The notes under the pieces were generated by a model that saw only the letters and a program-made list of their open reading frames with translations, was not told the origin of the DNA and made no database searches. A DNA stretch of 64,000 nt, from assembly GCA_001661515.1 (NCBI GenBank), contig LUVW01000003.1, positions 186,001 to 250,000 of the forward strand. Direction: 5' to 3'. Positions 2,468-30,355 of this stretch are shown in pieces. How positions within the stretch are numbered: position 1 is the first letter of the stretch; each line of letters begins with the position of its first letter. The DNA comes from Capniomyces stellatus (lineage: Eukaryota; Kickxellomycota; Harpellomycetes; Harpellales; Legeriomycetaceae). The position numbers and the translations under genes are program-made.

Positions 2468-5400
2468 ATGGAGCAGGCTAATCAAATTGATTCAAAGAAA
2501 CCTAGCAGCAAAATGAAAGCAGTCGGAACTAAGCGAAAAGTCAAAGAGATCGACAACGTAGAAAGTGCAGATATTAAAACAAAAAAACACACAAAGATAA
2601 CCGAATTTTGGAATAAGGATGGCAATCTAGGCTACGAAAGTGTTATTCCAGAATCTAAACCAGATACTCTTGGCCAACAAAATAAAAGCAAAAAGATAAA
2701 ACTTGAGCAAACCGACGCTCTGCGAAATGAAAGTACTGTGGTGCAGACAATGGGTCTCGATTTTGCGAGTTCTACACCAGCGATCGTCTTATCGCCCAAG
2801 AACGCACACGATTGCACAGAGGCTAAAAGTGACATGGACAAAAAAACAAAGGCTAAAAGCACGCAGGAAAAAAAGAAAAAGACGTTAATCGGTGGCTTGG
2901 ACAAGACAAAAGGGTCTTGTAAGAAATTGCACTTGAAAATCAAGAATAAAAGGGCAACTAAAATAAATGGGATTGTAGAAGGGGTATTAAAAGGCAAAGT
3001 TCGGAGAAAAAAAAAGGACAAGGTAGAAAACAAGAGTAAAAACAAAAAAGACAATAAAAAGATAGAAAATTGTTCGAATACAGACACAAAAACAGCGAAC
3101 AGTACAAGTGCGAACACGGATAGAGATGCAGATATAATAGTAAAGACAGAGGCAATCGCAGTTGCAAAAACACCGGAAGAAAATACCAAACTTGGGCCAA
3201 GGTTAAAGCCATTAAAGGGATTTGTCGATGATACACCGAGTCTGACCGAAAATAAAATGAAATACCAATTAGTGAAGCTCAGAAGAACGCGACTCAAGTT
3301 GCAATCAGAAAACAAAGCGAATATCAAGCCAATAACACACAGCGAAACCAAAGCCAAGGAGGAACCTAATATTGGCCTGGAGGACTCTTCCAAAATAAGC
3401 GCGAAAACCGTTGATTCGTTTATTTACCTGATAATCAAGAGACTTATTGAGGATAGCAAAGGGGGGGACGAAAAGGTAAGCGGTTTGGTCTTCATATTGG
3501 AAAGCGAATGTTGGATTATACATGTATAGATATATATGATTTGTGTCATTTTTATTCTTCTTTCCAGGAAATGGGCGATTCAGATATTTGCCAAAAGTCA
3601 ACTAAATAGTTAGATAAAAAAAAAGATAAAAAAAAGCAAAACAAATACTAACCAAAACCAAAAACCGACTGTAGTCCATTATACCCGAGCTGAAGAGCGT
3701 CAAGGGATTCAAGTTGAGGGATAGGAAAGAGCTGATGCCGTTGTATAAACCAATTTGGGCGCTGGAGTACCGAGTTAAAAGAATATGGGCGGACTTGTGG
3801 GATATCAACAAGCTCAATCCGTTCTTTACTCACAAGCAGCTGGCTGCAAGATTGACAGAAAAGCACGGGGTAAAGTTGAGCGTCAACGTAGTCGAAATGA
3901 TCCTAGGAGAGTGTTTAGATAGAGGCGATAGGGAGATGGCAAACCTGTTGCAGGATGCACGATTTGAGCTTGCGTCATCGATGTACAGTTTGCTTGTGAA
4001 CAAAAAGAAGCAGAACCCCAACTATCAAACATCAGACCTAGTGCTATGGGTTGACGAGGTTTTTGGAGTGAAGTTAGGCGAGAGAGATCTGACAAAGTTG
4101 CTTCAAAAGCCCACCTACTCGCTTAGATTTGGCAAGATGTCCGAAAACCAAGGAATGCGCCAGGAAGAGGCAGAGCATACATTTGTTGATGACGCCCTGT
4201 ACGAATGGTACCTGTTGAACCAGGATAAATATAGGTGGAGCAACAGTTTGCTAAAAGCCAAGGCGTCAAGTATGATTAAAATAGGCTTTCCCACAAAGGA
4301 AGTTGTATATAGCGTTTCCGACGAGTGGATAGCCTCGTTTAGAGAGGCATACGGCATAACTAGCTTGAACGACTCGAATGTTAGCCCAGTAGTGACGATT
4401 GACTCGCCAAGAAGATTTGTTGAGAGTATCCAGCACGAGTTGAAAAATTACGACCTTAAAGATGTGTACAATGTCTGCGAGGATGGGCTTTATTATAGAA
4501 TGAGTTTTGACGGGTTGAATACACGGTTGGAGAAGAGGAGCAACGGCAAGCTGGCGCTCATGGCCTGTGTCAATGGCGATGGGTCTGATAAAGTTCCGCT
4601 TTGGATAGTGGGGTGCTCAGTAAACGTGCCAGGGCTAACCACGGATGACCTGGGCAAGCTGAACGTCCATTACTCTTTAAGCTCGTTGGGGAAAATAAGG
4701 GCGGCACTGTTTGTCAAGTGGATAAAGTGGTTTGACGATAGAAATCATGGTCGCTGTGTGTTGTTGATACTGCGCAAGTATCCTGTCCATGTTGAGCATT
4801 TTGGCTTTAAGCTGCAGAACACAAGGCTTGTATATGTTCCCGACAGCCAAACAAATGTCAAGGAGCCATTAAGCGGAGGGATTATGCGTATTTTACGAGT
4901 TCAATACCGTTTGATGCAGCTGAGCCATACTTCAAGCAACTCCCAATTGCTTGACCCTAGCTGTGCTGAAGTAAACTTGGGAACTGCCATTCGGATGCTT
5001 TCGGAAGCTTGGAACTACTCGGTACCGGTTGATCTGATCCAATGCTGTTTCAGGGATTTCTACATTGCTCTTGGCGCTGCCCCTCCAGTGGTTTTAAACA
5101 CTAATGAAATCCACAAGTACGAACTGAACCAGCTCAAAAATCTGCGGTTGCAGGCTTTGGGTTTTGGCTTTGTAAAACCGCATTTATTTTGGCGTTTCTT
5201 AAGTTATCCAAGGGAAAACGATCCCATTAGTATGTGTGATGATAATGACCTAATCAACATGGCAGAAGACGATGCGCTGGTCATTGAGGACGAAATGCTT
5301 CGTAACGCTGGCAACCCCATTTCCCAAATCGAGCAAGGCGGCTCCAACAGCAATCTATGTATTTTGAATAAACATCCAAACTATCCCATTTGCTACGATG

Positions 5401-5942
5401 ACAATGCTTACCCCACCAAGTCTGACCTGCTCAGACTTGTCGATCATGACACCAAGACCGCCGCTGAGTCTAGAACCGACTCTAGCGCAAGCTTTGCCTT
5501 TTCGCTGGACCACAGCAGTTTCAATAGCCCAAGAGATAGTGTCAATAGCTACGAGAATACCAGCTCCAATTACCTAAAAAAGGTAGACTCGGCGATATCC
5601 ACACCCGACTCAATCGCAACCTTGATAGGTAGCTACAGCGGATCCTCAGAGCCTAACTCTGAATTTGTCTCGCCGTCTGTTTTCACCTCAAATTCTAAAC
5701 ATCCTTTAAACGGCGTATTCGAGTTTTCAGCAAGCCTGATTCCCATTTCTGATCCACTAGCCGACATTCCAAACCACGACTTTCCTACAACCCCCGAAAA
5801 GATCACTCCAAATTCGCCACATCCTTGCTCACCCGTCCGTTCAGTGGAAGTGTCTCCTACCACCACAGGCTTAAACTCGAAAAAGTGTGTAAATAAATTG
5901 AAGCTCATTGTCAGCGATATGTCACCTACTTTAAACATCTAG
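2468..5942 (+). CDS. CENP-B/pogo-like protein: domesticated DDE transposase with degenerate catalytic site
   Basis: Exons 2468-3475 and 3675-5942 join in phase 0 (intron 199 bp, GTAAGC, branch TACTAAC at 3646-3652, acceptor CTGTAG), giving about 1091 aa. Residues 1-336 are Lys-rich and disordered. The rest follows the pogo/Tigger/CENP-B layout: helical DNA-binding segments, then a Tc5-type HTH (DDALYEWYL ... SDEWIASFREAYGI), then a DDE fold recognisable from VYNV-EDGLYYRM, NGDGSDKVPLWIVG, ALFVKWIKWFDD, NTRLVYVPDSQTN and an AW...CFRDF tail. The three catalytic acids are replaced: Cys at about 604, Arg at about 703, Ser at about 736. The last ~200 residues are a Ser-rich tail. Family knowledge: domesticated pogo transposases such as fission yeast Abp1/Cbh proteins bind centromeric and repeat DNA. 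A host DNA-binding role is inferred. The long intact frame argues against a dead transposon. Confidence 0.88.
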
Positions 5943-17450: not shown

Positions 17451-17998
17451 AAATCAAATCACATAGAGTAAATGAAAAGAAAAAAAGAAAAAAAACACAT
17501 ACATCAAATCAAATTTTACTCGATGTTCAAAACTGTTCGTTTTCCTTTTTTACTATTAAAAGTTCGTGTGCAAGTATGATTAATTTACTATTTATTTTGC
17601 TACCTATTTGATACATCGGTTTACTGCTTTGAATTTATTTGGTGTTTAATTTTTTATTGATGGGTTTTTTTTAATATAAATATAAACATATAAAGTGGAC
17701 GAGTTCGACAAGTTTGTCTATTAAAACATTAAAATACAAAGCGAAAAACTTGATAAAAATGAAAAGTGGTGGTGGGGATGAAAAGGTGAGAGGAAGTGAC
17801 AAGGGGGGGGGGGTTGGATAAATTATCCACTTATATGGGTATGTCATTTAGAATGTTTGATGTTAAGGGCAAGTTGTTTTTGGGGCTAGCCGATACATAC
17901 CACAATTACACTGCCAAACACAAACCCCTCGACCATGTTTTTTTTCCCCTTTTTTTTCGTGATAATATCAATCATTTGATACTATCAAAATCCGGATT

Positions 17999-19017
17999 TT
18001 ATCTACAAATTATATCCCCAGTCTTTGCATTTATACACTCGTCCATATCTACTTCGCTCGGTACATTTGCCCAGAATAAAACGGAATTGCCTAATCAGTG
18101 TCAAAACATCCAAAAAGTAGAAGAAAAGATTGGCTTTAAATATAAAAAAAATCAAACTATATACATTATCAAAAATATGAATGATATCAATATAACTGTA
18201 TGTGCGTGTATACTATATGTGGACTTGAGAGTCTGTATTTACCTGCAGAATCCTTTTGTTCAAAGGCCTTGACGCTCTCGGTTAAAAACATCCAAAAATG
18301 GCCATTGTTGCATGCTTTTAGACATTCAAAGCATGGTTGAGTTATATGGTATCCGATTTCATTTCCGCTATTACACAAGTACATTTATCATTTATCATTT
18401 ACCGTTAATATTGTTTTCTTTCAACTTGTATTTTTACTACTTAGTTAAAATGATACCAATCAATATATTGTAGCTTACCACCCCAGACACGCAATGTTCC
18501 TTATTTTGCATCGACATGACCGTGTTGTATAATCAGGTCCTATTAGTTGGATTCGACTAGAATGCATAAAACCAACAACCATGTTAACAACCACATCACA
18601 TACAGGCATTTACATATCGAAAATGCTTTATTTAAGCATCAGAGTGTTTTTAAACTCGCGCTGTCCTCTTTTTTTTCTTTCTTCTACACTTTTTACTTTA
18701 TAATTTCATTTTTTTTTGTACTTCTTCTACTTACTTCATAGGTGGCATATCCGTAGAAAATAACTCGACCCGGTTATCAGCCAACAATAGCGCCTGTTTA
18801 AATAATTATTTATTTTCTATTAGTATACACACTAGTTATACTCGACTGGTAATGGTTATATGCTCAGCTATCAAGATATACGTGTGAGTATGCTCAGTTT
18901 AAATCTTACTCTCATTCCCCGGCTGCAGACATTGTTGCTGCAGTAACTGCAAAACAACTTGCATACTGTTTTTGTTCTGAACTGAGGGTTGAATGTATTT
19001 GAGTAAGTTTGGTGCAT
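17999..19017 (-). CDS. FAM72: FAM72 family protein, five small exons
   Basis: Exons 19017-18910, 18793-18735, 18556-18479, 18367-18243 and 18090-17999 sum to 462 nt with consistent phases, giving 153 aa. All four introns (111-178 bp) begin GT and end AG. The product matches FAM72 along its length: a Cys-rich start (CKLFCSYC ... CSRGMR), LLLADNRVELFSTDMPP, CRCKIRNIACLGCGN..GYH, and PCFECLKACNNGHFWMF, then VLFWANVPSE. Human FAM72A is about 149 aa, so this looks full length. The paired CxxC motifs suggest a zinc-binding fold. Family knowledge: vertebrate FAM72A binds the uracil-DNA glycosylase UNG2 and promotes its degradation, tilting uracil repair toward mutation; no function is established here in fungi. 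It converges with COP1. No ORF longer than 65 codons marks this gene. Confidence 0.94.
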
Positions 19018-24586: not shown

Positions 24587-26240
24587 TCAATTGAAGATCA
24601 CAAAATCAGTCGACTTTGGGCGGTTTTTAATAATAAACTTAGAGTTCAAATCGTCATTTTGCTGAATTCTTAAAAAGGCATGATCAAGATCAGATTCTAT
24701 ATTTATCGTCAGTTCATTCAAAGGAAAACGGTTAGTTGCCAAGAACGCAACTTTTTCAAATCGAGACCCAAAACAGATTGACATCGTAGCAAAAACAAAC
24801 CTACCTAGGCCCGTGGAGACATGGCGTTCAGCCAGTCTTTTTTTCAGCAGCACGGAATCTTTAGGATCGATCAGAATGGTGACATTCCATACACCAAGCA
24901 AGTCTGACCACGGTGTAATATTGTCAATGCAAGTGTACAGGCCCTCTACTATAACAATTTTGTGGCTAAAAGAATCAAGAAAAAAAATGGAGAAAAGAAA
25001 TGAGTGTCAGACAAGGTGTTAGAATGTGCGGCGTGACAGTAGTCCCAAATCCAAATGGCTGCAAGCAGAGAGAGATATGTAAAATGACTAAAAAAATAAA
25101 GTGCAATCAAATATTACTCGGGTAGTATAAGTATAGAATCTGGCTCAGGGTCGCCGATGGAATGGTCAAACATTGGGGCTGAGATAGTAGAGCCCAGTTT
25201 TAATCGGCTAGCATTTTTTACAAATTCGACAAACCCTAATGTATATATTTACAATTTATCAAAAAGATTAAACAATTCAAGTCAGGGAAAATAAACCAAA
25301 TGTATAAAAGTATAGATATATATATAATGGTTGTCTACCATCACCATCGAATGTCCAATGGGAGCCACGACGTTTGTGCGCTTCTTTGGGATTCTACAGA
25401 TGTACAGTATAGTAACCGAGTTTAATGGGTTTTAAAACTGTCAGGTAGAAGTTATTGGATTTTAAAGTTAGAATAAGACGAGAAGCCCGGCAAGGCTGGT
25501 GAAATGGGTACAAAGCAAATTGCCTAAAGCAAGCAAGAGAGGGACTGAGGATAAAGTATCGGTTTGTAGGATAGCATGACGGTTGCTTACAGGCAGATTG
25601 TCGAGTTGTGATTTTGTTAGGTGGAACCCATCCATTGGCAAACAAACACAGCCTAAAATCGAGTAGTATGCTGCTATTAATACGAATGGCGAATGCCAAA
25701 ACAAGCAAACAAAAATAATTCAATAGCGGCACTTTTTCAGAGAACTGGGATTTTGACGTTACAGTTGGTTTTCGCTAGAGAGTTTATCAGTTCGACTAGC
25801 TGACCGGATATTCGGGATTTCCCTGAACCAGCAACGCCTTAAAAAGTAGCAAATGCACACCAAATAAAACAACGGAAATAAAAAAAATGAAAAAATAACA
25901 ACGTAACTTGTAAGAAACAAGCATCAAAAGTAGGTCGATTTCGTTAGTTCAAAAGCAAAAAAAGAGGATCCCAAAATAGCATACTCTTACCTGAAACCCC
26001 AACAAACAACCGCGTGTCATTACAGCCACTGATATGATAACAGTCAGACGGTGGAGTTTTTTTTGTTTTTTTTAAAAATGTTGTAGTTTTGTTCGTTTCT
26101 TGGTTTGTTTTGTTTTTGGATTGACATTAAAACAAAAGTGGAAGCAAAATAAAAAAAAGGAATTAGACTTACTTTGAAAAAGTTTCGAGTAGCAGCTGAG
26201 CAAGAGTACCCAAGTTTGTGTCGGAATCAAACGTTTTCAT
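24587..26240 (-). CDS. P-loop kinase of the uridine kinase/phosphoribulokinase superfamily (YFH7/YggC-like), eight exons
   Basis: Exons 26240-26173, 26028-25991, 25837-25763, 25652-25591, 25393-25339, 25235-25118, 24965-24805 and 24696-24587 total 687 nt (228 aa), with phases that fit at all seven junctions and GT/AG ends. The assembled protein carries the family signatures in order: Walker A FVGVSGVAGSGKS split by an intron, LPMDGFHLTKSQLDNLP, PKEAHKRRGSHWTFDGDG, APMFDHSIGDPEPDSI, HKIVIVEGLYTC, ILIDPKDSVLLKKRLAERH and QNDDLNSKFI. Yeast Yfh7 and bacterial YggC share PMDGFH, RRG..TFD, FDHa..DP and VEG. The length is close to the bacterial form and shorter than Yfh7. Expected chemistry is ATP-dependent phosphorylation of a small metabolite; the substrate is unknown. 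The exons are short for so small a protein and are invisible as long ORFs except the last two. Confidence 0.9.
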
Positions 26241-26671: not shown

Positions 26672-29600
26672 TTACTTTCTACCATCAAGATACTCTCTCC
26701 AGCTCTTTACTGGCAAAGGAGTTGGCGAGTTGATCATATCAGCAGGTAAATTAGCGAGGCAATCGATAAGCAAGCTGGCGCATCGTTGGTCATTGACCAG
26801 TGGTACGTCAAAGTCAACGGCCATTCTTCTCATGGCATAGCCGGTGTTGCTCTTGGACATTGGCTTGTGCTTGGCCAAGTTGAAGACGATGCCTAGGTTT
26901 GACGATTTGGCAACGGGGAACAAGGACTTTTTGTCGTTGTAGGGATACTGAACCATGGTAGAGTTTCCAGGGCCAACAAAGTTTTGGACAATTGAGTGAG
27001 ACTCTTTGTTGTCGGTTATGACTTTGTAGCCAGCATTAGCAAAGAATTTAGAGATTTTCTCAACAATGCTCAAGTCAGTCAGGTCGTCAAAGCCAATCAG
27101 GACAGACGAGTTCTTCTTGGGCAATCGGAAGCCAATTGTGGACAGCAGACCAAGCAGGTATGCCTCCTCGACGGTATGGCCTAAACACGCAACCTCACCG
27201 GTACTTGCCATCTCGACACCCAAGAATGGATCAGCGCCAGCCAACCGGGTCCAGCTGAACTGGGGAACCTTTGTTGCTACGTAGCCCCAATCCTTTGATG
27301 ACTTCATCAAGTCGACAGGCTCAGGGACATCCTGGTTGATCATGGACTTGGTTGCGACCTCGATAAAGTTGACATTTGTTGCTTTTGAAACAAACGGCAG
27401 CGACCGGGAAGCTCGCAGGTTGCACTCGATAACCTTGAGTAGCGGCTCGGCGTTTTCCTGGGGCTGCAGAATAATCTGCATGTTAAATGGCCCTGAGATT
27501 TCAAATGCGGAGGCGACCTTGTTTCCTATTTCCTTGATTCTCTCCATTACGTTTTCTGAAACCGTAACTGGTGGCAGAACCAATGTTGCATCCCCAGAGT
27601 GGACACCAGCATCCTCGACGTGCTCACTGATGGCGTGAACCAGCATTTTTCCGTTGTGGGCAACCGCATCGATGTCCAGCTCACGGGCGTTGAGAATAAA
27701 CTTGGTCATGACAACAGGGTGCAATGGCGAAACCGAAGCAGCCAGAGCCAAGAATCTGTGCAGAGTTTGTGCGTCATAAGCCACATTCATAGCTGCACCA
27801 CTCAGCACGTACGATGGTCTAACCAACACTGGGTACCCGACTTGCCCTGCAAACTCCATCGCCTCGTCATAGCTTCTCAGCTCCTTCCAAGCCGGCTGGT
27901 CAACACCGATTTTGTCAAGAATTGTTGAAAATCTGTGTCGGTCTTCTGCAGCGTCAATCATTTCGGGGCTGGTTCCAACAACCTTCACGTTGTCTTGATG
28001 CAGTTTCAGTGCAATGTTCTGTGGCAGCTGTCCCCCAACACTAACAAGTGCGCCTGATGCGTTCTCCAGCTCGTAGATATCCTTGACTCTTTCAAGCGAC
28101 AGTTCGTCAAAGTACAACCGATCGCATTCATCGAAATCTGTGCTTACTGTCTCTGGGTTGTAGTTCACCATGATTGTCTTGTGGCCCAGCTTGCGCAGTG
28201 TTCTGGCCGCCGATACTCCACACCAATCAAACTCAACCGACGAACCAATTCTGTACACCCCTGACCCAAGTACCATGTACCCCTTGTCTTCAAAAGTTAC
28301 GTCGTTGGTCGATGCGTTGTACGTTGTGTACAGATAGTTTGTTGGTGCTGGGAACTCTCCAGCCAAGGTATCGATTCTCTTGACAAATGGCTTGATTCCC
28401 ATCTCCAGCCTTCTCTTTCGAACTTGGTCCTCCGTGTAGCTAACCTCTGCACCATCCCCGCCGTCAGCTGAGGTTTTGGAGAGAAGCTTTGATATCTGCA
28501 CATCCGAAAATCCGTCTCTTTTGGCAACCTCCATAAGCGTGGCTGAGATGGTGTCCAGGTTGGTGTTTTGGTCTCCCAACGCATTGTGTGTTTTAAGAAT
28601 CTTCTCCAGCTTTTGCAGGAACCAGTTGTCAATCGCGGTCAACCGGTGAATACGTTCAATGCTGTACCCCCTATCAATCATAGCATGGGCAATGTAAAAC
28701 AGCCGTCTGTCTGTTGCGTTTTGCAACTCATAGTCCAGCTCTGCCTCTGAGGCTGGCTTGCAGTCATTTAAGGAGTCAAACCCAACAAACGATGGGTCAA
28801 CTTGCCTAATCGCCTTTTGCAGACTCTCTTCAAACGTCCTGCCAATCGCCATTACCTCCCCAACACTCTTCATGCTGCTTCCAATCAGCCTTGACACGTG
28901 GTTGAACTTTGACAAGTCCCAACGCGGAATCTTTGTCACAATGTAGTCCAAACTTGGCTCAAAACACGCCGTGGTTGTTGTGGTTACACTGTTCTGCAGC
29001 TCGGGAAGCGTCCATCCCAGCGCTATTTTGGCCGCTACAAACGCCAGTGGGTATCCAGTAGCTTTGCTCGCAAGCGCCGACGATCTTGACAACCGCGCGT
29101 TCATCTCAATTACGCAGTACTCCATCGACTTTGGATTCAGTGCGTACTGGACATTGCATTCTCCAACAACCCCCATGTGTCGCACTATTTTTATTGCTGC
29201 TGTTCTGAGCATGTGGTACTCTGCATCAGTAAGCGTCTGACTAGGTGCAACCACAATCGAATCTCCAGTGTGAACTCCCAATGGATCAAAGTTCTCCATA
29301 TTGCACACTGTCACGCAGTTGTCGGCTGCATCTCTAACCACCTCGTACTCAATTTCTTTCCATCCCTTCATCGATTTTTCAACCAGAATCTGTGGCGATA
29401 GCGACAAACTCTGATTACTTAGCTGTCTCAACTCCTGCTCAGTTTCTGCAAACCCTGATCCCAGCCCTCCTAAAGCATACGCTGATCGCACAATCACCGG
29501 ATACCCAATCTCTCTCGCAGCCTTTAGTGCATCTTCGACCGTGTTCACTGCTGTGGACACTGCTACCGGAATGTCAATCGACTTTAATGCCTGCGCAAAC

Positions 29601-30355
29601 AAGTCACGATCCTCGCTCAGCTCCAGTGTTCTGATCGATGTTCCCAGAACTTTGACATTATACTTGCTAAACACTCCCATCTTCTCCAACTGCACTCCAC
29701 AATTCAACGCCGTCTGTCCACCAAATGCCAGCATTATTCCGTCTGGTCTTTCCTTTTCAATCACCTTTTCTAAATACGACGCTGTTACTGGAACAAAGTA
29801 CACCGAATCCGCCAACTCGTGCGAGGTTTGCACTGTTGCAATATTTGGGTTCACAAGTATGGTCTCTATCTTTGACTGCTTCAGCGCCTTGATCGCCTGA
29901 CTCCCAGAGTAATCAAATTCTCCAGCTTGTCCAATCGTCAAACCACCACTCCCAACAATCAGCACTTTCTTCACATCCACTTTATTTATTGGATCTCCAA
30001 CTATCTCTGTGTCAATTCCTGCCTCCTTAACCGTGCTTGCTGTATAATGCACAGCTGCCCCGCTAAATCCACGTCTACCTACATAGATACTACTTGGATT
30101 TGTTTTGGCTTTGCTCGATTTAATTGGCGATTCCCAACTGTTTTGTACAGATCGACTATATGTTTTGCTCTTGTTTACTTTGCTGACAAAAGTATGGAAT
30201 GAGCTGGTTGCATTCTTGTTACTCTCACCTCGCGCATTTCCTAGATTTTGCGCATTCAGTCTCTGAACACACGATTGCACACCGATAACATTTTGTTTGA
30301 TCGATTGTCTGCTCGATACTCGAAGCAAACTTGCCTTGCTTATTGTAGAGTACAT
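26672..30355 (-). CDS. CPA2: Carbamoyl-phosphate synthase, arginine-specific, large chain (mitochondrial)
   Basis: A single intronless frame of 1227 aa starting at ATG 30355. The large subunit makes carbamoyl phosphate from ammonia supplied by the small (glutaminase) chain, bicarbonate and two ATP. The first ~115 residues are rich in Ser, Arg and Lys and nearly free of acids, a typical mitochondrial presequence. The duplicated synthetase halves begin at VLIVGSGGLTIGQAGEFDYS and VLGSGVYRIGSSVEFDWCG, each followed by an ATP-grasp domain; a C-terminal MGS-like regulatory domain ends the protein. No glutaminase or aspartate transcarbamylase part is fused, so this is the arginine-pathway enzyme and not the URA2/CAD pyrimidine enzyme. 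A presequence of this length argues for mitochondrial import; S. cerevisiae Cpa2 is cytosolic. Confidence 0.97.
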   Translation of the reverse strand: MYSTISKASLLRVSSRQSIKQNVIGVQSCVQRLNAQNLGNARGESNKNATSSFHTFVSKVNKSKTYSRSVQNSWESPIKSSKAKTNPSSIYVGRRGFSGAAVHYTASTVKEAGIDTEIVGDPINKVDVKKVLIVGSGGLTIGQAGEFDYSGSQAIKALKQSKIETILVNPNIATVQTSHELADSVYFVPVTASYLEKVIEKERPDGIMLAFGGQTALNCGVQLEKMGVFSKYNVKVLGTSIRTLELSEDRDLFAQALKSIDIPVAVSTAVNTVEDALKAAREIGYPVIVRSAYALGGLGSGFAETEQELRQLSNQSLSLSPQILVEKSMKGWKEIEYEVVRDAADNCVTVCNMENFDPLGVHTGDSIVVAPSQTLTDAEYHMLRTAAIKIVRHMGVVGECNVQYALNPKSMEYCVIEMNARLSRSSALASKATGYPLAFVAAKIALGWTLPELQNSVTTTTTACFEPSLDYIVTKIPRWDLSKFNHVSRLIGSSMKSVGEVMAIGRTFEESLQKAIRQVDPSFVGFDSLNDCKPASEAELDYELQNATDRRLFYIAHAMIDRGYSIERIHRLTAIDNWFLQKLEKILKTHNALGDQNTNLDTISATLMEVAKRDGFSDVQISKLLSKTSADGGDGAEVSYTEDQVRKRRLEMGIKPFVKRIDTLAGEFPAPTNYLYTTYNASTNDVTFEDKGYMVLGSGVYRIGSSVEFDWCGVSAARTLRKLGHKTIMVNYNPETVSTDFDECDRLYFDELSLERVKDIYELENASGALVSVGGQLPQNIALKLHQDNVKVVGTSPEMIDAAEDRHRFSTILDKIGVDQPAWKELRSYDEAMEFAGQVGYPVLVRPSYVLSGAAMNVAYDAQTLHRFLALAASVSPLHPVVMTKFILNARELDIDAVAHNGKMLVHAISEHVEDAGVHSGDATLVLPPVTVSENVMERIKEIGNKVASAFEISGPFNMQIILQPQENAEPLLKVIECNLRASRSLPFVSKATNVNFIEVATKSMINQDVPEPVDLMKSSKDWGYVATKVPQFSWTRLAGADPFLGVEMASTGEVACLGHTVEEAYLLGLLSTIGFRLPKKNSSVLIGFDDLTDLSIVEKISKFFANAGYKVITDNKESHSIVQNFVGPGNSTMVQYPYNDKKSLFPVAKSSNLGIVFNLAKHKPMSKSNTGYAMRRMAVDFDVPLVNDQRCASLLIDCLANLPADMINSPTPLPVKSWREYLDGRK

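Follow-up and report, generated by a model that had tools for sequence, protein, structure and literature searches.

Most of what is known about FAM72A concerns UNG2, a DNA-repair enzyme that it helps to destroy, together with antibody diversification and cancer; its structure with muskelin and UNG2 is reportedly the subject of a 2024 paper by Barbulescu. PMC12223117 describes human FAM72A as a bridge between UNG2 and muskelin (MKLN1), which belongs to the CTLH E3 ligase, and finds that all human FAM72 paralogues bind MKLN1, whereas only FAM72A binds UNG2 robustly. The latter statement conflicts with the binding of FAM72B to UNG reported in PMC11377751, which also describes FAM72 oligomers, binding to RPA and recruitment to chromatin. 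A preprint refers to a published cryo-EM structure in which the FAM72A C terminus (-CIR) is accommodated by the muskelin kelch repeats, and the authors of the preprint remark that -CIR is not closely similar to the -PER degron motif of ZMYND19 (PMC12871134). The same preprint maps degron-pocket residues for that -PER motif: single changes had a limited effect, that of W291 being partial, but human muskelin lost its activity when the W291 change was combined with one at Y346 or R517 (PMC12871134). YPEL5, for its part, is described as binding WDR26, with an N terminus that is a degron mimic, and FAM72A and YPEL5/Moh1 have been proposed in a review to be members of what may be a family of CTLH receptors (both in PMC12687426).

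We compared with these systems a locus in a window of 64,000 nucleotides (i.e., the whole stretch of Capniomyces stellatus DNA that was analyzed), for which an initial annotation had proposed a FAM72 gene in an apparent gene desert. A splice model of the window yielded five exons on the minus strand, from 19017 to 17999, separated by four introns that are all of the GT...AG type and have consistent phases (Table 1). The joined exons contain no internal stop and encode a product of 153 aa in which the motifs RGMR, LFSTDMPP and CNNGHFWMF are all present, so the exons, coordinates, length and motifs originally put forward were all recovered. When a profile built from 26 other FAM72 members was compared with the six-frame, stop-to-stop pieces of the window, exons 4, 3, 1 and 2 were each matched singly, in collinear order and on one strand; since base shuffling of the window, done five times, gave no match better than E 0.86, the exon set is more than chance. 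Exon 5 was not significant by itself, and its prediction is supported by splice phase and by similarity to relatives, the joined protein being 79% identical to FAM72 of Smittium angustum over 121 residues (residues 37 to 153) and aligned with it through the last residue. An alternative last acceptor, giving an exon from 18133 and a protein of 166 aa, was rejected in favor of 18090 to 17999, which fits both the phase and the S. angustum alignment. An ORF of 158 aa on the plus strand (17796 to 18272), which overlaps exon 5 and some of exon 4 in antisense, is presumably spurious. These comparisons confirm a genuine FAM72 gene with predicted junctions. Because the open frames containing exons 1 and 4 comprise just 66 and 65 codons and the ORF list of the window has a single ORF of at least 150 aa between 16904 and 26671, annotation based on ORFs only would miss the gene, as had been anticipated.

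Table 1. Predicted exons and introns of the FAM72 gene in the window (E values refer to the profile of 26 other FAM72 members)
Feature	Position	Strand	Length (nt)	Content	Basis
FAM72 exon 1	18910..19017	-	108	ATG; residues 1-36, end ...CSRGMR	splice model; own-frame profile match, E 2.4e-10
FAM72 exon 2	18735..18793	-	59	ALLLADNRVELFSTDMPPM..	splice model; profile match, E 2e-7
FAM72 exon 3	18479..18556	-	78	..RIQLIGPDYTTRSCRCKIRNIACLG..	splice model; profile match, E 8.6e-11
FAM72 exon 4	18243..18367	-	125	..GNEIGYHITQPCFECLKACNNGHFWMFL..	splice model; profile match, E 1.8e-23; best match in PF14976 genome search
FAM72 exon 5	17999..18090	-	92, including stop	..NSVLFWANVPSEVDMDECINAKTGDIICR	phase and acceptor; alone, E 2.3; joined, reaches last residue of S. 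angustum FAM72
FAM72 intron 1	18794..18909	-	116	GT-AG	splice model
FAM72 intron 2	18557..18734	-	178	GT-AG	splice model
FAM72 intron 3	18368..18478	-	111	GT-AG	splice model
FAM72 intron 4	18091..18242	-	152	GT-AG	splice model

Elsewhere in the window, open frames with MDGFHLTKSQLDNL at 25719 to 24590 on the minus strand suggest another multi-exon gene; the motif in these frames is presumably that of a P-loop nucleoside or YFH7-like kinase. Given this candidate, the apparent gene desert may partly consist of intron-rich genes. Carbamoyl-phosphate synthase large-chain domains lie in one open frame of 1227 aa (26672 to 30355, minus strand), and a DDE_1 transposase domain, with a subthreshold match to a Tc5-type DNA-binding domain, is located at 3714 to 5942 on the plus strand. 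Scans of the window with Rfam and for tRNAs (the latter using the bacterial code) found nothing.

Against Pfam family PF14976, the window protein scored 183.8 bits (cut-off, 27) over profile positions 2 to 132 of 145, in line with the homology that had been proposed. Homologues (n = 42) were collected with a 166-aa alternative model as the query, to which the coverage figures are relative and which shares its first 124 residues with the 153-aa protein; the closest FAM72 proteins among the matches listed belong to Kickxellales and Harpellales. In alignment A1, consisting of 41 rows (the window protein and 40 of the 42 homologues), eight positions of cysteine and histidine (C70, C72, C79, C82, C94, C97, C101 and H105) were invariant, as were S49-T50-D51 and N102-N103-G104. 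A PDB sequence search with the 166-aa model found no relative at E <= 1. Judged by its sequence, the window protein is a true FAM72 relative and represents the canonical FAM72 gene of its fungus. A diverged FAM72-like paralogue is located on contig C16 of the same assembly (minus strand, start codon at 820371, extending to about 817575), where a 195-aa piece from the first three exons scored 77.2 bits against PF14976. This paralogue has kept FSTDLPP and has a different stretch in place of CNNGHFWMF; its open frame of 754 codons includes a long tail rich in Gln and Ser and does not end in -CR.

The suggestion that FAM72 lies hidden in fungi holds for this gene, which escapes ORF-only annotation, but not for the family. 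The 42 homologues listed cover 30 different fungi identified by name (counting Rozella), and many of the fungal proteins are already labelled FAM72 by NCBI or UniRef; FAM72 is thus already annotated in many early-diverging fungi, and its presence in fungi is not new. Neither Dikarya nor Mucoromycota occur among the 42, an absence that is weak evidence because the list contains only two named animals (Glandiceps and Rhinoderma). Literature searches combining FAM72 with fungi or chytrid returned, judged by titles and the beginnings of abstracts, no study of fungal FAM72. What the locus adds is its context, with muskelin and without a detected UNG, a setting in which the original function of FAM72 can be tested directly.

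Both muskelin and a CTLH core are encoded in the assembly that carries FAM72 (24,510,316 bases in 59 contigs). The muskelin gene, on contig C38 (18004 to 13541, minus strand), has 7 exons and encodes 1275 aa, the first 704 of which matched muskelin chain 8ttq_A with 424.9 bits; its nearest muskelin among the matches listed is that of S. angustum. Together with the closest FAM72 proteins, this match places the fungus most likely within Kickxellomycotina, perhaps close to Harpellales. The protein is longer than the 755-aa chain 8ttq_A and contains extended low-complexity segments, some inside the kelch region and some behind it. Human muskelin residues W291, Y346 and R517 correspond here to W336, Y391 and R637 (R637 was placed by the multiple alignment, since the pairwise match in that part is not significant by itself). 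From a list of 117 muskelin matches, P0159 was omitted as not being a muskelin, and addition of the C38 protein brought the alignment to 117 sequences; among these, the three pocket columns contained W in 114, Y in 94 and F in 20, and R in 108, respectively. The assembly search further revealed genes for a LisH-CTLH protein (contig C3), a protein with CTLH and a RING-type finger (C4) and a SPRY-LisH-CTLH protein (C22), whose domain architectures would make them TWA1, MAEA or RMND5, and RanBP9, respectively. Additional CTLH matches were found on C2 and, weakly, on C12.

The tail that would meet this pocket reads -ICR in the window protein and -CIR in human FAM72A. A C-terminal arginine is present in 33 of the 42 homologues and a Cys-Arg end in 26; the nine without the arginine comprise four labelled partial and five that are not (P0011, P0014, P0029, P0034 and P0038). 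Because all nine were omitted from alignment A2, which served for the structure model described below, the invariant terminal arginine in A2 is no extra support. In sequence, the -ICR end, the Arg-ended homologues and the conserved muskelin residues would be compatible with a tail that fits the kelch pocket.

We consider it probable that the window FAM72 serves as a substrate receptor for the GID/CTLH E3 ubiquitin ligase in its muskelin form, with a client that is not UNG. Its -ICR tail would plug the kelch propeller of the fungus's own muskelin, and the folded domain would present the client for ubiquitination by the muskelin-CTLH ligase; we infer the FAM72-muskelin interaction, the ubiquitination of a client and the client being other than UNG. 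We lean towards placing the feature common to animals and this fungus at the E3 ligase (tail, fold and muskelin) rather than at UNG, which fits the observation that MKLN1 is bound by all human paralogues and UNG2, robustly, by FAM72A only. The capture of UNG looks separable from muskelin binding, and FAM72 in fungi may target something else.

The initial annotation had taken a fungal copy to imply an older role in the control of UNG. This did not find support: exon-by-exon searches of this one assembly revealed no gene of the UNG/UDG superfamily, and thus no UNG client, while muskelin and CTLH genes were found. The PF03167 profile gave no UDG candidates and TIGR00628 no UNG candidates, the GQDPYH codon pattern had no match, and neither yeast Ung1 nor a Lipomyces UNG, used as queries, matched the assembly at E <= 10. 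Three matches to QAHGL-FS, with one mismatch allowed, were rejected; two are copies of one sequence, and they have in-frame stops and lack the flanking UNG motifs. On contig C7, one and the same 23-base sequence occurs in an identical translated context at 606808 and 625759 on opposite strands, which suggests an inverted duplication with copies about 19 kb apart. In a protein search with yeast Ung1, the organism-named entries among the best 120 of 7999 scored were all from genera that we take to be ascomycetes, a list that says nothing on UNG in Kickxellomycotina.

We hold it unlikely that the fungal FAM72 regulates a uracil-DNA glycosylase, as its mammalian counterpart does, and that the gene for UNG was missed because it is cut by introns or falls in an assembly gap. 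In favor of this reading, the protein belongs to the same family and the mechanism in mammals is established (PMC12223117). Exon-by-exon searches can indeed miss short exons, as illustrated by FAM72 exons 1 and 5, which were not reported separately in the PF14976 genome search, and the same could apply to an UNG gene that consists of numerous tiny exons or lies in a gap. The controls for the two profiles (PF03167 positive in 13 of 14 genomes, TIGR00628 in 6 of 14) were all prokaryotes and hence do not test intron-cut genes, and the dUTPase and two HhH-GPD genes found in the assembly, each in one long open frame, are easier controls. However, the intron-cut muskelin and CTLH genes were detected as well, and a frog FAM72 query found the window gene via exon 4 alone (52% identity over 48 residues, E 1.1e-13; second piece, E 0.118); together with the empty profile, pattern and query searches, these recoveries argue against a missed UNG. 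A tryptophan of the window protein, W130, could also be cited in favor of UNG control, since it presumably sits at the place of human W125, one of five positions that differ among the human paralogues. W125 is deemed important for UNG2 binding in one modelling study (PMC8616359). Such a tryptophan is not kept family-wide, however: a crude pattern, some of whose misses are truncated sequences, found it in 26 of the 42 homologues, and it is absent from the near relative S. angustum.

The FAM72 product is predicted to adopt a Yippee/CULT fold, on the basis of a model built not for the window protein but for its Kickxella alabastrina relative P0003, with the 26 sequences of alignment A2. The model has a mean pLDDT of 76.5 and eight beta strands, with values below 50 for residues 139 to 153. 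Of 378 PDB matches listed by Foldseek, 11 had E <= 0.001, namely, seven Mis18 Yippee domains, YPEL5 on WDR26 (8qbn_Y), chains Y of 9rsd and 9rsc (which belong to CTLH-receptor complexes) and cereblon (8rqc_D); TM values by query length were around 0.5. The top two matches were to Mis18, and the best PDB matches were Schizosaccharomyces pombe Mis18 and YPEL5 in the WDR26-CTLH complex, with cereblon lower, so that the modelled relative resembles all three. FAM72 presumably binds zinc.

The Mis18 matches at the top of the list, as well as the oligomers, RPA binding and chromatin recruitment described in PMC11377751, would agree with FAM72 working mainly outside the CTLH ligase, e.g., in chromatin or the response to replication stress, through RPA binding or a Mis18-like assembly. 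We regard this as more improbable still, because the resemblance to Mis18 is one of fold, at 9 to 11% identity, and because the C-terminal arginine of 33 homologues, whose docking site in muskelin has been described, would be left unexplained. Finally, the weak match of exon 5 alone would suit a decayed or chance assembly of exons with no working gene, a notion whose chances are negligible in view of the canonical, in-phase junctions without an internal stop, the score against PF14976 and the identity to the S. angustum protein up to its last residue.

Returning to a muskelin-CTLH receptor with a client other than UNG, we tentatively sketch a history that is somewhat more open to doubt than the proposed activity itself. 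FAM72 might have originated before the split of animals and fungi, recruiting a client other than UNG to the muskelin-CTLH ligase; this fungus would have kept the module while UNG was lost, the degradation of UNG2 in vertebrate B cells would be a later recruitment, and the fungal client would be a conserved CTLH substrate. In PMC3797097, muskelin is described as an opisthokont innovation that is restricted to opisthokonts. Such a restriction would fit an origin of the FAM72-muskelin pair before that split. The muskelin list, however, includes a Muskelin_N protein (P0158) from Kipferlia bialata, which we take not to be an opisthokont and which speaks against a strict reading. Ten of the 30 named fungi with FAM72 also occur by name in the muskelin list. 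Muskelin is present as well in fungi without a FAM72 among the 42 homologues (Mucor, Pneumocystis, Tilletiaria, Sphaerobolus and Phakopsora; both lists were word-filtered), indicating that the two are not tightly co-inherited. A fungus in which FAM72, muskelin and the CTLH ligase occur without a detectable UNG would amount to a natural separation of the two partners, which makes the original client of FAM72 testable and predicts a new CTLH substrate.

Among the described systems, the Yippee/CULT domains of Mis18 and cereblon have the fold in common with the FAM72 model but differ in sequence (9 to 17% identity among 50 of the listed matches) and belong to other complexes. YPEL5 (yeast Moh1), the WDR26-CTLH partner, is like FAM72 in predicted fold (8qbn_Y, E 8e-5) and, like human FAM72A, is associated with a CTLH complex but is only 13% identical. 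The likeness to vertebrate FAM72A (PF14976) extends to homology over most of the length, the conserved cysteine pairs, the LFSTD-PP and CNNGHFWMF motifs and the C-terminal arginine, with 47% identity to frog FAM72A over 129 residues; in contrast to the vertebrate protein, the window FAM72 shares its genome with muskelin but with no detected UNG, and a diverged, long paralogue is also there. Closest are the FAM72 proteins of other Kickxellomycotina (Kickxella, Linderina, Martensiomyces, Coemansia and Smittium), often 153 aa long with a -CR end, which show 69 to 83% identity over the aligned part in the homologue search and 57 to 70% in alignment A1 and from which the window protein differs by sequence divergence only.
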